Assembly (NCBI GenBank): GCA_947449575.1
Contig: CANFRV010000033.1
Coordinates: 1-38,135 of the forward strand
Length of the DNA: 38,135 nucleotides
Reading direction: 5' to 3'
DNA from: Flavobacteriales bacterium
GTDB lineage: Bacteria; Bacteroidota; Bacteroidia; Flavobacteriales_D; Crocinitomicaceae
The notes under the pieces are model-generated. The model did no database searches and was not told the DNA's origin. It worked only from the letters and a program-made list of their open reading frames with translations. The translations under genes were made by a program, and so were the position numbers. The stretch's first letter is position 1, and each line of letters opens with the position of its first letter. Of this stretch, positions 15,756-29,735 are shown piece by piece.

Positions 15756-15786
15756 AAAAAAAGCTCGCTAAATTAGCGAGCTTTTT
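15756..15786 (-). terminator. Terminator of rpsF-rpsR-rplI operon
   Basis: AAAGCTCGCTAA and TTAGCGAGCTTT form a near-perfect stem of about twelve pairs with A and T tracts on each side. It lies 19 bases past the rplI stop on the minus strand and is structurally bidirectional. Confidence 0.8.
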
Positions 15787-25405: not shown

Positions 25406-27502
25406 TTATGAAATACTACTCCAATTAGGTTTAGACAACATTATTTTTCTCAATTTTTCTCGAATTAATAAATAATCTGGATTCTCTAACAATGGATCTT
25501 CTTCTAGTATTTCTCGCGCTTTATCTCTCGCTAAAACGACAATTTGACCATCTTTTGATAAATCCGCTATTTTCAAGTCTAAATCACCACTTTGCTGAGT
25601 ACCCATAATATCGCCGGGACCTCTCAATTCAAGATCGACTTCAGCGATTTCAAAACCATCATTGGTTCTCACCATTGTTGCTACTCTTTTTTTAGATTCC
25701 CGGGATAGTTTAATACCTGTCATCAAAATACAGAAAGATTGCTCAGCACCGCGACCTACTCTACCTCTTAACTGGTGTAACTGCGACAAACCAAATCTTT
25801 CCGAACTTTCAATAATCATCACAGAGGCATTTGGCACGTTAACGCCCACTTCAATAACGGTAGTTGCTACCATAATCTGCGTTTCACCTTTTACAAATCG
25901 TTGCATTTCGAAAGCTTTATCTGCAGGTTTCATTTTTCCGTGAACAATACTTACTCGGTATTCTGGCAAAGGAAATGAACGTGAAATCGCCTCATAGCCA
26001 TCCATTAAATTATTATAATCCAATGTTTCTGATTCTTTAATCAATGGATACACGACATATATTTGGCGCCCTTTTGCAATTTCTGACTTCATAAATCCAA
26101 AAACAGTTAAACGATTACTTTCAAATCGATGAGACGTTTCAATAGACTTTCGACCAGGTGGTAATTCATCAATAACTGAAACGTCCAAATCGCCATAAAA
26201 AGTCATCGCTAGGGTTCTGGGTATAGGTGTTGCTGTCATAATTAAAACATGTGGGGGAATCGTATTTTTTTTCCACATTCGAGCACGTTGAGCTACCCCA
26301 AACCGATGTTGCTCGTCAATCACAACGACTCCCAAATTTTTGAATTGTACCACATCTTCTAATAAAGCGTGTGTGCCAACGAGAATATTTATTTCTCCAT
26401 TTTCCAGTCCTTCATGAATTCTCCTGCGATCTTTTTTTCCTACCGATCCAGTCAATAATTCAATCTTTAGGTTCATCTGTTTTAACAAGTCAACCAATGT
26501 GACAAAATGTTGACTAGCTAAGATTTCGGTTGGAGCCATTAATGCTGCTTGAAAACCATTTCCAATTCCAATTAACATCGTTAAGAGGGCAACTAATGTT
26601 TTTCCGCTTCCAACATCTCCTTGCAACAATCGATTCATATGATGCCCCGTTAAGAAATCTTTTCGAATCTCTTTTAAAACGCGCTTCTGTGCATTGGTCA
26701 ACGAGAACGGTAAGTAATTTTCATAAAAATCAGTAAACGGCAGTCCCACCTCTGTGAAAACATGTCCACCTGTTTTTCGAATACTGATGAGCTTGCGCAT
26801 CAACATTTCCAATTGAAGGAAAAATAATTCTTCAAATTTTAAACGAATTCTAGCTTTATTTGCGTTCGCTTCATCGATGGGACAATGAATTTGAATGAAG
26901 GCATTTTCTGCTGAAATTAAATGTAAATCTTGAACAATCGATAATGGCAATGTTTCTGCAATTTTACCCTGTAATTGTAAAACTAAAGCTGTAATTATTT
27001 TTTCAATCCCTTTGGAGCTCAAACCATTCATTCCTAGTTTTTCAGAACTAGAATATACAGCCTGTAAACCTTTTTCAAACTTCACTTTCTCAAATTCAAC
27101 TAGTTCAGGATGAGGAATATTGAAAGATGAACCAAACAATTTTGCTTTTCCATATACTTGAAATTCAACATCTGGCTTCAAAAGCGGCTTAATCCATTTT
27201 GCTCCTTGAAACCAAACCAATTCAATACTACCAGTATGATCTTGGAATTTCGCTATTAATCTATTTTGCTTACCGATTAGTCGCTCTGACACATGAACGA
27301 TTTTTCCTTTTAACTGCGCATATCCATCCAACTGAGGCAATTCTGCAACCGTATGGTATTGGGAACGATCGACATAACGAAAAGGAAAATAATGTAATAA
27401 ATCATTAAATGTAAAAATTCCAGCTTCTTTTTTTAGAAGTTCGGCACGATTTGGGCCAACTCCTTTCAAAAATTCAATGGGAGTACTAAGGAATTCATTC
27501 AT
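25406..27502 (-). CDS. recG: ATP-dependent DNA helicase RecG
   Basis: The 698-residue protein remodels stalled replication forks and branched DNA. An N-terminal wedge/OB-fold domain (about 1-230; GVGPNRAELLKKE, HYFPFRYVDRS, QLKGKIVHV) precedes an SF2 helicase. Walker A is GDVGSGKT (about 295-302), followed by MAPTEILASQH, DEQHRFG (about 395), TATPIPRTLAMT, and the second lobe with TTVIEVGVNVPNASVMIIE and RFGLSQLHQLRGRVGRG. The C-terminal region ends GPGDIMGTQQSG, which is typical. The gene is monocistronic. Its upstream region has a TACATTTG box and two palindromes. Confidence 0.96.
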   Translation of the reverse strand: MNEFLSTPIEFLKGVGPNRAELLKKEAGIFTFNDLLHYFPFRYVDRSQYHTVAELPQLDGYAQLKGKIVHVSERLIGKQNRLIAKFQDHTGSIELVWFQGAKWIKPLLKPDVEFQVYGKAKLFGSSFNIPHPELVEFEKVKFEKGLQAVYSSSEKLGMNGLSSKGIEKIITALVLQLQGKIAETLPLSIVQDLHLISAENAFIQIHCPIDEANANKARIRLKFEELFFLQLEMLMRKLISIRKTGGHVFTEVGLPFTDFYENYLPFSLTNAQKRVLKEIRKDFLTGHHMNRLLQGDVGSGKTLVALLTMLIGIGNGFQAALMAPTEILASQHFVTLVDLLKQMNLKIELLTGSVGKKDRRRIHEGLENGEINILVGTHALLEDVVQFKNLGVVVIDEQHRFGVAQRARMWKKNTIPPHVLIMTATPIPRTLAMTFYGDLDVSVIDELPPGRKSIETSHRFESNRLTVFGFMKSEIAKGRQIYVVYPLIKESETLDYNNLMDGYEAISRSFPLPEYRVSIVHGKMKPADKAFEMQRFVKGETQIMVATTVIEVGVNVPNASVMIIESSERFGLSQLHQLRGRVGRGAEQSFCILMTGIKLSRESKKRVATMVRTNDGFEIAEVDLELRGPGDIMGTQQSGDLDLKIADLSKDGQIVVLARDKAREILEEDPLLENPDYLLIREKLRKIMLSKPNWSSIS

Positions 27503-27529
27503 TTAGTTATTTCTTTTTTGGCATTTTCA

Positions 27530-27552
27530 AACCGTTACAATTTGTAACGGTT
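27530..27552. promoter_or_regulatory. Palindromic putative operator upstream of recG
   Basis: AACCGTTACAA and TTGTAACGGTT are perfect 11-base arms around a single T. It lies 28-50 bases upstream of the recG start on the minus strand, between the predicted promoter and the gene. There is no T-tract, so it is more like a protein-binding site or leader hairpin than a terminator. Confidence 0.55.
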
Positions 27553-27570
27553 ATACTTACTTTCTTCGTT

Positions 27571-27590
27571 TTTACTAGTAAACAAATGTA
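27571..27590 (-). promoter_or_regulatory. recG -7 box abutting perfect 12-bp palindrome
   Basis: Minus-strand TACATTTG (27590-27583) fits TAnnTTTG. Directly downstream of it lies the perfect palindrome TTTACTAGTAAA (27571-27582), which covers the predicted transcript start. A bound dimeric protein there would block initiation. Confidence 0.45.
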
Positions 27591-27599
27591 AAGATAAAA

Positions 27600-27630
27600 A
27601 AAAATCCTCCGAAAGTTACTGAGGATTTTG
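27600..27630 (-). terminator. Terminator of the dsbD operon
   Basis: AAATCCTC and GAGGATTT form an eight-to-nine pair stem with an 11-base loop. Read on the minus strand it is followed by a long T run. It lies 18 bases after the dsbD stop at 27648. Confidence 0.75.
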
Positions 27631-27647
27631 AGGTCATTTTAATTTTG

Positions 27648-29735
27648 TTACTTTTTATTGAAAGCCGCTAGGCCATCATCTAACCATTTTTTAAACACTT
27701 TAGAATCATTATGATTTTGATAATCTGCAGAACCAACTGGTAAATCTATTCCTTCAGGAGTTTTTAATACATAATAAGGTTGAGAAGCTGTGCGGTATTC
27801 TTTTATTTGTTTTGCCGTCCATTTGTTTCCTATCGTGACAATGTCAAAATCACGACCGTCTACTTTCTCTGTTTTTTGTTCATTTTTAGGCAATTCAGTG
27901 CGCTCATCCACATACAATGAAACGATTACAAAGTCATTTCTTAGATGTTCAATAACACCAGGTTCACCCCAAACCGATTGTTCCATTTTACGACAATTGA
28001 CGCAGCCCCAACCAGTGAAATCAACGAATAAGGGTTTACCAACTTCTTTGGCATACGCAAGTGCTTTGTCATAATCGTTAAAAGCCATCAAACCTTGCGG
28101 TCCCTCATGCATTCCGTCAACTGCATGAGTTGTCGTTCCATGTGAGGCAGAACTGTTTCCTCCTCCACCAAAGCCTTTTGGCGATTCTGCATAGAAATCA
28201 GGCGGTAAAAAAGCGTTCACTAATTTAAGAGGTGCTCCCCAAAGGCCAGGAATTAAATAGATGGTTAATGCTAATGTTAGTGTGGCCATCATGGTTCGTC
28301 CTACGGATAGCTTTTCAACAACACTGTCATGTGGTAAGCGGATTTTTCCAAACATATATAAAGCCAATGCCCCAAACACAGCAATCCATATCGAAATAAA
28401 AATTTCACGTTCTAATAAATGCCATTGCATCGTTGTATCGGCTGTAGATAAGAATTTAAAAGCGAATGCTATTTCTATAAATCCCAAGAATACTTTGACA
28501 ACGTTTAGCCATCCTCCTGAATTAGGCATGGAGTTCATCATCGATGGAAAAATTGAGAATAACATAAATGGAAGTGCCAATGCAAGTCCAAAAGCGAGCA
28601 TACCCACCATTAATGCAGTACCTCCTCCGTAAGCAGAAAGTCCGCCGAGTAAACTTCCTAAAATTGGACCTGTGCACGAAAAGGAAGCCAATGAAAGCAC
28701 AAGTGCCATGAAAAAAATACCAATTACCCCTCCTTTGTCTGCTTTTGCATCTGCTTTATTTACCCATGAACTTGGTATCTGAATTTCAAATGCGCCTAAA
28801 AATGAAAGTCCGAATAAAAATAACATCAAGAAAAAGAAAATATTAAAATAAACATTGGTTGACAATTCATTTAACAGTTGACCGGCACCAGTTACAACTA
28901 CAAGAGCACCCAAAAGAACATGAATTAATACAATTGAACCTCCATAAATGAAAGCGTTTTTTATCCCTTGCGCACGATTTTTTGAACGCTTAGTAAAGAA
29001 ACTCACGGTCATTGGAATCATAGGGAAAACGCACGGCATTATCAAAGCGGCAAATCCACTCAAAAAAGCAAGAAAAAATATACCCCACAGAGATTTATTT
29101 TCCGTTTCGTTTTTAGACGTACTTGTTCCTGCTAAGTCTTTTTTTACTTTATCATCACTACCATTTGATGTCTGTGATTTTGCAGAACTGCTTGTAATAG
29201 ATGAATCAGAAGTGTTTCCTTGCACACTATCTTTTTCCACAACTATCGCTTCTGCGATTTGCTCACCACTAACTCCTTTTACTTTTATAGAGAATTTTTG
29301 ACCAAAAGGAAGCAAACATCTTACTTCATTACAAGTTTGAAAATCGAAAACACCCTCTAAAAGGAAATCTTTATCTGATAGAATTTGTATTTTTTGCTGT
29401 AATTTAATTTTCCCCTCATGTGTTGCTAAATCTTCATCCGCGGCATCATCATGCTTCAAATGAGGTTTAGGTTCAATCACTTTACCAATCGTTTTGAAAT
29501 TTTTCGACTTTAAAAACGTAAGATTAGAGGCATAACCAAAACATCCTTTTGGTAAAACCACCGCGTTAATATGCCAGTCTTTTACAATGGAGATATCAGC
29601 AATGATCGTTGCCTCGGAACCGTTCTGTTCAACTCTAAAAGTGGCTTTCACTTTTTCATCACCATATTCCATTTGAGCAGAAACAAGATTCGCTGCAAAA
29701 AGAATTACTAACAGACTAAAAAATATTTTTTTCAT
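27648..29735 (-). CDS. dsbD: DsbD-type thiol:disulfide interchange protein
   Basis: The 695-residue protein has a signal peptide (MKKIFFSLLVILFAANLVSA) and a DsbD-N-like periplasmic domain (about 25-155) with a CNEVRC pair. A Ser/Thr/Lys-rich linker (about 165-205) leads to a membrane domain with about eight segments (about 208-490, including the cysteine-bearing MPCVFPMIPMTVSFF and SFSCTGPILGSLLGG), and a C-terminal thioredoxin-like domain has WGCVNCRKME (about 574-583). The layout is that of DsbD, which passes electrons from cytoplasmic thioredoxin across the inner membrane to reduce periplasmic disulfides or cytochrome c maturation factors. All three cysteine pairs are visible. It follows the small DsbD-N-like gene by three bases, so the two are one operon. 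Confidence 0.9.
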   Translation of the reverse strand: MKKIFFSLLVILFAANLVSAQMEYGDEKVKATFRVEQNGSEATIIADISIVKDWHINAVVLPKGCFGYASNLTFLKSKNFKTIGKVIEPKPHLKHDDAADEDLATHEGKIKLQQKIQILSDKDFLLEGVFDFQTCNEVRCLLPFGQKFSIKVKGVSGEQIAEAIVVEKDSVQGNTSDSSITSSSAKSQTSNGSDDKVKKDLAGTSTSKNETENKSLWGIFFLAFLSGFAALIMPCVFPMIPMTVSFFTKRSKNRAQGIKNAFIYGGSIVLIHVLLGALVVVTGAGQLLNELSTNVYFNIFFFLMLFLFGLSFLGAFEIQIPSSWVNKADAKADKGGVIGIFFMALVLSLASFSCTGPILGSLLGGLSAYGGGTALMVGMLAFGLALALPFMLFSIFPSMMNSMPNSGGWLNVVKVFLGFIEIAFAFKFLSTADTTMQWHLLEREIFISIWIAVFGALALYMFGKIRLPHDSVVEKLSVGRTMMATLTLALTIYLIPGLWGAPLKLVNAFLPPDFYAESPKGFGGGGNSSASHGTTTHAVDGMHEGPQGLMAFNDYDKALAYAKEVGKPLFVDFTGWGCVNCRKMEQSVWGEPGVIEHLRNDFVIVSLYVDERTELPKNEQKTEKVDGRDFDIVTIGNKWTAKQIKEYRTASQPYYVLKTPEGIDLPVGSADYQNHNDSKVFKKWLDDGLAAFNKK

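Follow-up and report, generated by a model that had tools for sequence, protein, structure and literature searches.

A palindrome upstream of recG as the apparent relic of a Bro-N gene, in a family that probably carries its own binding site within the coding sequence

The parS site of Bacillus subtilis lies inside the spo0J/parB gene, is conserved in sequence and is present in several copies. In temperate phages, repressor/operator pairs define the immunity types, and the operators lie between genes. The family of Bro-N genes described here has something in common with both. As with parS in spo0J/parB, a palindromic site is found inside the gene of what is probably its own binding protein; unlike parS, the Bro-N site is highly variable in sequence, codes for part of the DNA-binding domain, and follows the residues that are predicted to read it. 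As with the phage pairs, reader and target appear to diversify together, but the phage operators are intergenic, whereas the Bro-N target is within the reading frame of its own reader. Palindromic structured-RNA candidates that overlap cas genes have also been reported, and were interpreted as RNA (PMC9067536). These too are covarying palindromes in coding sequence; they differ in belonging to other genes, in being read as RNA, and in that the portion of that paper covered here describes no protein-DNA covariation.

A literature search on Bro-N and PDC-S13, which covered few subscription journals and preprints and is weak evidence, returned no description of a conserved coding palindrome or of a recognition code, and there is none in the covered portions of PMC8263062 and PMC5944126. 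As far as checked, it is new for the site itself to code for part of the DNA-binding domain of its reader and to change together with the helix of that domain.

The palindromes upstream of recG

The window is a whole contig of 38,135 nucleotides (CANFRV010000033.1, assembly GCA_947449575.1) from a Flavobacteriales bacterium of the Crocinitomicaceae. On its minus strand it contains an ORF that we take, from family features in its sequence, to be recG (25406 to 27502, starting at 27502), with orthologues in 12 of 12 genus genomes, and the upstream neighbour of this ORF, presumably a dsbD-like gene on sequence features of the same kind (27648 to 29735, minus strand). The initial annotation described two perfect palindromes upstream of recG, 18 bases apart, and proposed that they are operator-like sites, or a leader RNA structure, regulating recG. 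Both palindromes are indeed there. The larger, AACCGTTACAA-T-TTGTAACGGTT, is a perfect 11+1+11 palindrome of 23 bp at 27530 to 27552, which is 28 to 50 bases 5' of the ATG, and the smaller is the 12-bp TTTACTAGTAAA at 27571 to 27582. The window contains 22 perfect even palindromes of at least 12 bp, compared to 17.9 ± 3.8 expected from 60 first-order Markov copies, and TTTACTAGTAAA is therefore unremarkable and at chance level. Odd-centred palindromes with arms of at least 11 occur twice in the window, compared to twice in total across the 60 Markov copies, and the 23-bp palindrome exceeds chance. The second of these two has arms of 13 and is located between two minus-strand ORFs at 15759 to 15785, as a perfect 13+1+13 palindrome that resembles an ordinary terminator. 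At the extreme end of the contig (38105 to 38132) there is a perfect 14+14 palindrome, GTAGGTATAGGGCATGCCCTATACCTAC, possibly a hairpin or an assembly end.

The 23-mer is a single copy in the 3.5-Mb genome (69 contigs) with up to three mismatches allowed, so that the genome search for a regulon, as had been suggested, yielded no further member, and the many copies per genome expected of a REP-like dispersed repeat are likewise missing. Bacteroidetes LexA-like boxes are GGA-N5-TCC and CTAA-N5-TTAG, as given in the covered part of PMC8565304, and the 23-bp palindrome matches neither. A scan of the window for Rfam elements gave one weak match, to plasmodium_snoR30 (25.4 bits, compared to a gathering threshold of 43), which overlaps one arm.

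The remaining features between the two genes, given like the 23-bp palindrome for the minus strand, begin with a terminator-like stem 3' of the dsbD-like gene (27600 to 27631), which is retained in the sister genome G008 and was not listed by the consensus scan. It is followed by TACATTTG (27583 to 27590), which we take, from its motif, to be a Bacteroidota-type -7 element; this too is retained in the sister, and similar elements precede recG in other members of the genus. The next approximately 30 bases (27553 to 27582) separate this promoter from the 23-bp palindrome and include TTTACTAGTAAA, which is missing from the sister. The operator-like character proposed for the two sites holds for the larger palindrome, which does resemble a protein-binding DNA site, and not for the smaller.

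In the sister genome, the identical 23-mer (L003 866 to 888) is within an ORF of 273 aa (L003 687 to 1508), which is located between dsbD and recG and has a stop codon that overlaps the recG start. The 23-mer is about 600 nt upstream of recG and encodes the residues ETVTNCNGL. The ORF matches the Pfam Bro-N domain (PF02498) over residues 14 to 109 with 41.1 bits (cut-off 25.6), and no NCBIfam model matches it. The gap between dsbD and recG is 1005 bases in the sister and 145 in the window, which holds a relic only. After the palindrome the window continues with TGAAAATGC (27521 to 27529) and then, up to the recG start (27503 to 27520), with bases that align with the extreme 3' end of the sister Bro-N ORF. 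The 9-bp TGAAAATGC occurs twice in the sister (at 889 and 1475 of L003) and once in the window gap, and a deletion of 586 bases between short direct repeats therefore explains the 3' side; it covers the 3' junction only, leaving the 5' breakpoint in the window unexplained. On this comparison, the 23-bp palindrome is the deletion relic of a Bro-N gene that once lay between dsbD and recG and is still present in the sister, a remnant of its self-complementary coding segment (E)TVTNCNGL. Ungapped, the flanks are 96.1% identical between window and sister in recG (1478 nt) and 99.2% at the end of dsbD (493 nt), and the survival of an intact, unselected 23-mer is therefore no surprise.

Phylogenetic footprinting was conducted on 12 genus genomes, the window's included, all of which have recG. 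The initial annotation had named a lack of conservation in close relatives as the result that would count against its proposal, and conservation is largely absent: the palindrome was not found before recG in nine of the 12 genomes, is inside another gene in one (the sister), and is decayed in one. In those nine, no more than 14 to 18 of 24 bases can be matched anywhere in the 1.5 kb before recG, and several have no room for a 23-mer. The decayed trace, ACAATTTGTAAAGGTTTGAAATTG, is at the same place in G009, about 48 bases before recG (locus L007), and retains 21 of 24 bases; the insertion may be older than the split between window and sister, or may have occurred twice. The larger palindrome is thus what is left of a site in a deleted gene, and is not evidently a control site for recG.

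No match to the intact sister Bro-N gene was found in the window genome (E up to 0.001), and all that turned up there was a fragment and one broken gene, which belongs to a second kind of Bro-N. The broken gene (L206, G000:C7:109364-109639) contains one TAG, and a palindrome scan of it gave no typical palindrome of the second subfamily. Across the family, the 23-mer is present with up to two mismatches in nine of 240 genomes (a reversed control matched one genome), and the eight copies outside the window are all in Bro-N genes, of which five are intact, while the other three are broken or run off the end of a contig. We do not claim that palindromes are selectively retained in relics, because relics found by the pattern necessarily contain it.

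A coding segment kept palindromic beyond the protein requirement

The family, the sister ORF included, matches PHROG 15286 (function unknown) and the PADLOC defence candidate PDC-S13, with a full-length match of locus L015 to the profile PDLC04920 (PDC-S13) at an E value of 2.4e-132. Its distribution is patchy: of 240 family genomes, 58 have the gene, which is frequently interrupted by stop codons or reduced to a fragment. The labels of the sampled sequences, which include genomes and viral contigs, span many phyla, and many of the records are metagenome-assembled genomes. A second subfamily shares only the N-terminal domain, at 31-38% identity.

In these genes the codons for residues 60 to 68 stay palindromic although the residues differ completely, with peptides that include ETVTNCNGL, ETVTNCHGL, ELTTNCSQL, QLSEKIGQL, QLYEKIVQL and NWGTICPLV, among others. 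Codons in the two arms are reverse complements of each other, for example GTT/AAC, GTG/CAC, ACT/AGT, TCC/GGA, TAC/GTA and GGG/CCC; for codons 62 and 66 the complementarity is exact in 86 of the 98 distinct motifs, with 14 kinds of pair among them. The letters of the palindrome vary by paired codon changes, which often change the amino acid, and for the pair 62/66 at least 63 changes among 97 genes were counted on a C-terminal tree, module swaps being included in that count (this was a quick tree, calculated using LG without mixture from residues 85-268 only).

For 153 homologous genes, some of them duplicates across two collections, the mean is 9.27 of 10 pairs at the site, compared to 5.27 at the next best place and 3.19 at an average place. 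At least 8 of 10 pairs are formed within 9 bases of the aligned centre in 150 of the 153 genes, and at 115 of the 123,213 centres elsewhere in them; stray centres with 8 or 9 pairs are found in about half of the genes and have no common location. One of the 153 loci yielded no motif row, and use of the 98 distinct 27-mers avoids the duplication. These have a mean of 8.96 of 10 pairs. A synonymous-codon null, in which the amino acids were fixed and codons redrawn from each gene's own usage, gave 5.62 ± 0.12, and exchanging right halves between genes gave 4.89 ± 0.23. The second subfamily has 10.0 of 11 pairs (12 distinct motifs from 18 loci; null 5.67 ± 0.38), although a stricter free scan placed the palindrome at the site in only 11 of 17 loci. 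The statistics show that the protein sequence alone does not account for the palindrome, which is maintained at the level of the DNA duplex.

The sample was collected by protein searches, two of which used peptide patterns at least 27 residues away from the site; one pattern search kept 80 of at least 573 relatives and the other 42 of 42. The protein alignment holds 97 of 117 non-redundant proteins, from 140 usable genes of the 153.

The pairing type was analysed for 93 of the 98 motifs, and the covariation tests below used 94 of the 97 proteins, motifs with fewer than 7 of 10 pairs having been left out, which favours structure. Mismatched cells comprised 11 G-U and 22 A-C, compared to 91 and 139 in the null. 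G-U is thus not favoured over A-C, which argues for selection on the symmetry of two DNA strands and not on an mRNA hairpin: it seems to be the double-stranded DNA that is selected.

Relatives were found in 13 plasmid records and four phage records, and eight plasmid loci were read. The palindrome is present in five (Arcobacter, Haliscomenobacter, Parabacteroides, Phocaeicola, and a Treponema gene annotated as Fic) and absent from three, of which two are Chloroflexota genes (42-45% identity) and the third is truncated. The Bro-N gene on plasmid pACLO of Arcobacter cloacae (L217 1498 to 2394) is between cas4 and cas1b in a type I-B CRISPR operon and carries a perfect 14+1+14 palindrome. The Treponema gene (L222 1495 to 2370), annotated as a Fic adenylyltransferase, has an N-terminal Bro-N-like domain with the palindrome and adjoins a restriction specificity-subunit gene. 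Three short open frames of about 83-87 aa consist of the Bro-N domain only (L208, L209 and L210); L208 and L209 are directly upstream of a full gene, and L208 and L210 bear their own, different palindrome.

One palindrome class was found at 13 places in 12 genomes, picked mostly for carrying that class; 11 of the places are in Bro-N genes and two are solitary and intergenic, so that the site seems rarely to occur without the gene. The two solitary palindromes, of the TTGTACGA class and with no Bro-N frame, are located at L203 (G222:C63:6433-6457) and L204 (G237:C31:1444-1468), and may be relics or targets in trans. A search for second copies of the arms around 31 genes found none that was convincing, the best having 8-10 of 12 bases for the left arm and 10-13 of 15 for the right.

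Fold and covariation with predicted reading residues

AlphaFold2 was used to model the protein from 97 sequences, with a mean pLDDT of 88.8. In the model, a helix at residues 43-56 precedes the palindromic segment, which spans a short helix (60-63) and the start of a strand (66-71) that looks like the first strand of a wing. Foldseek gave six matches with E up to 0.001, all of them DdrC of Deinococcus (E 3.8e-7). Alignment of the whole chain with DdrC by VIA-align gave a Z score of 14.5 over 217 aligned residues, with an rmsd of 10.9. For the N-terminal domain, the same program gave a Z score of 8.4 with the N-terminal domain of DdrC (rmsd 4.2), followed by Dachshund (8.1), a granulovirus protein (7.2), MBP1 (6.2) and the PCG2-DNA complex (6.1), where Z scores below 8 may reflect merely a common arrangement. 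No further clear family was listed by Foldseek or VIA-align, and a sequence search of the PDB with the family profile gave no match with E up to 1. DdrC of D. radiodurans, the best structural match and the nearest solved fold, is a DNA-binding dimer; it is reported, in the covered part of PMC5436757, to bind DNA irrespective of sequence, with a preference for single strands. Specificity in the Bro-N protein would accordingly be a difference between the two, which moreover have only 12% identity and a large rmsd.

The half-site covaries with one face of the upstream helix (residues 44-53) and with residue 78. At position 53, arginine goes with C3 (66 proteins) and lysine with A3 (26), leaving two exceptions among 94. 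At position 49, valine goes with A4 T5 (40 of 40), lysine with A4 (20 of 21) and G5 (19 of 21), aspartate with G4 C5 (20 of 20), and alanine with C4 C5 (7 of 7). Arginine 78 goes with A11 (60) or C11 (5), and tyrosine 78 with G11 (29 of 29). Among 173 variable columns, and with the rest of the protein controlled for, those that track the palindrome best are 53, 49, 48, 78 and 45 (the median column has 0.006). The code proposed from these data pairs residue 53 with base 3, residue 49 with bases 4-5, residue 45 with base 6, residue 48 with base 8, and residue 78 with base 11.

The residues on one helix face (44, 45, 48, 49, 52 and 53) together have a partial Mantel r of 0.72, whereas the remaining helix residues, which are much less variable, have 0.13. 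Other sets have lower partial r values, namely 0.41 for strand 77-80, 0.21 for 72/73/76, 0.13 for 33-36, and at most 0.07 for three further sets. The single residues 31 (0.28) and 35 (0.17) are correlated also, and raw mutual information additionally ranks 41, 42, 55, 56 and the C-terminal tail. Independent pairs taken across supported branches of the C-terminal tree gave, for eight contact tests, averages of 5.6-9.0 pairs changing the same way and 0.0 the opposite way, a result that is a consistency check, the contact residues having been picked and tested on the same sequences. Six control tests on the same tree, with controls chosen by the analyst, had few discordant pairs and no trend. Of the five palindrome-bearing plasmid genes, four are members of the main subfamily, and their residues 49, 53 and 78 agree with the code. 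This outside check is small; the L218 helix was read by eye because its numbering was one residue off, and the sample already included the motif that Parabacteroides and Phocaeicola have.

Two loci, L038 and L046, have 96% DNA identity behind the palindrome and 66% before it, and 10 of 13 pairs are changed on both sides. From these sequences, they appear to differ by a swap of the N-terminal specificity module, in which the palindrome was exchanged with it. Some of the covariation may therefore be linkage or hitch-hiking, because the helix adjoins the site and an exchange can involve the whole N-terminal module. However, residues 55 and 56, which are nearer to the site, have no trend, and this argues for contact over linkage.

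Proposed role and alternatives

It is probable, in our judgement, that the palindrome of intact genes, of which the window keeps a relic, is bound by the dimeric Bro-N domain of its own gene, likely limiting the expression of that gene; dimeric binding is the most likely reading of the covariation. The winged-helix-like domain would bind as a dimer to the palindrome inside its own gene. Within each half-site, helix residues 44-53 would read the inner bases 3-8, and base 11 would be read by residue 78, which is on the second strand of the predicted wing. The palindrome itself encodes the first strand of that wing, so that recognition residues and target fit within about 150 bp and travel together. 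The bound protein would then block the polymerase about 180 bp into the ORF, and thus limit its own expression and that of downstream genes on the same transcript; for autoregulation by such a roadblock the chances are perhaps even. In the sister, the Bro-N gene lies between the apparent recG promoter and recG, and binding would throttle recG as well. In the window, the gene has been lost and its site is orphaned.

Other readings of the palindrome fare differently. That the 23-mer before recG is a live operator, kept by selection after loss of the gene or adopted by another regulator, is very improbable: it is still perfect and is located between promoter and ATG, but it has no second copy in the genome, no intact Bro-N gene was found there, nine of the 12 genus genomes have no such site upstream of recG, and the loss is recent enough for the 23-mer to have survived without selection. 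The proposal of a recG operator or leader RNA, with neither conservation, nor a cognate gene, nor further copies, is unsupported, and an RNA structure in the leader is not favoured given that the pairing selected in intact genes tolerates G-U no better than A-C. Only a shade less improbable is that the Bro-N mRNA, or the recG leader of the window, forms a hairpin that is bound or regulates translation. Such a hairpin would suit the one class that has an unpaired, loop-like AAAAA centre, and the weak Rfam match in the window does touch the palindrome; but the commonest class pairs inward to a one-base centre, G-U is not enriched, the helix residues track the bases, and Rfam searches of eight homologue loci gave a tRNA and sub-threshold matches, none of them over the site. 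The correction of quasi-palindromes by template switching is known, and by copying changes from one arm across to the other it would make paired changes easy. That mutation of this kind keeps the palindrome, in place of selection, we consider about as doubtful as the hairpin, since it does not predict that residues of the helix and residue 78 follow the bases while the nearer 55 and 56 show no trend, nor that the gene has a single place that is palindromic on average. Template switching may nevertheless supply the paired changes.

A more serious alternative, though still an unlikely one, accepts that the protein binds the site but has it serve as a nucleation or partition-type site, in the manner of parS within parB, or has the protein act on incoming copies of the same allele, instead of repressing its own transcription. 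The linkage and joint diversification of target and reader are consistent with this, as are the listing of the family as a PADLOC defence candidate, its patchy presence in the 240 family genomes, the copy between cas4 and cas1b, and two copies near ParB-family genes, although both of these have no palindrome. Against it, the family is no more than a defence candidate, and the search around the 31 genes gave no convincing second arm. Own-gene binding by the Bro-N dimer can be extended to a self-addressed gene, which we offer tentatively and hold to be somewhat less likely than its opposite: a domain that reads a palindrome encoding part of itself, in a cassette that would diversify into mutually blind specificity types and be swapped as a module, with the resident copy silencing not only itself but also the genes that follow it and any incoming copy of its own type.

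The window shows that a site with the look of an operator, in front of a housekeeping gene, can turn out to be a fossil. As for the family, an operator is normally located outside the gene for its reader, and the two evolve independently, whereas the Bro-N stretch has to satisfy two codes together: in about a hundred distinct motifs, the DNA spells part of a DNA-binding domain, stays palindromic, and changes with the residues predicted to read it. An intragenic palindrome of this kind offers a simple test of function, and the motifs together provide natural data from which a protein-DNA recognition code could be worked out, in a family that is uncharacterised, widespread, a defence candidate, and probably mobile.
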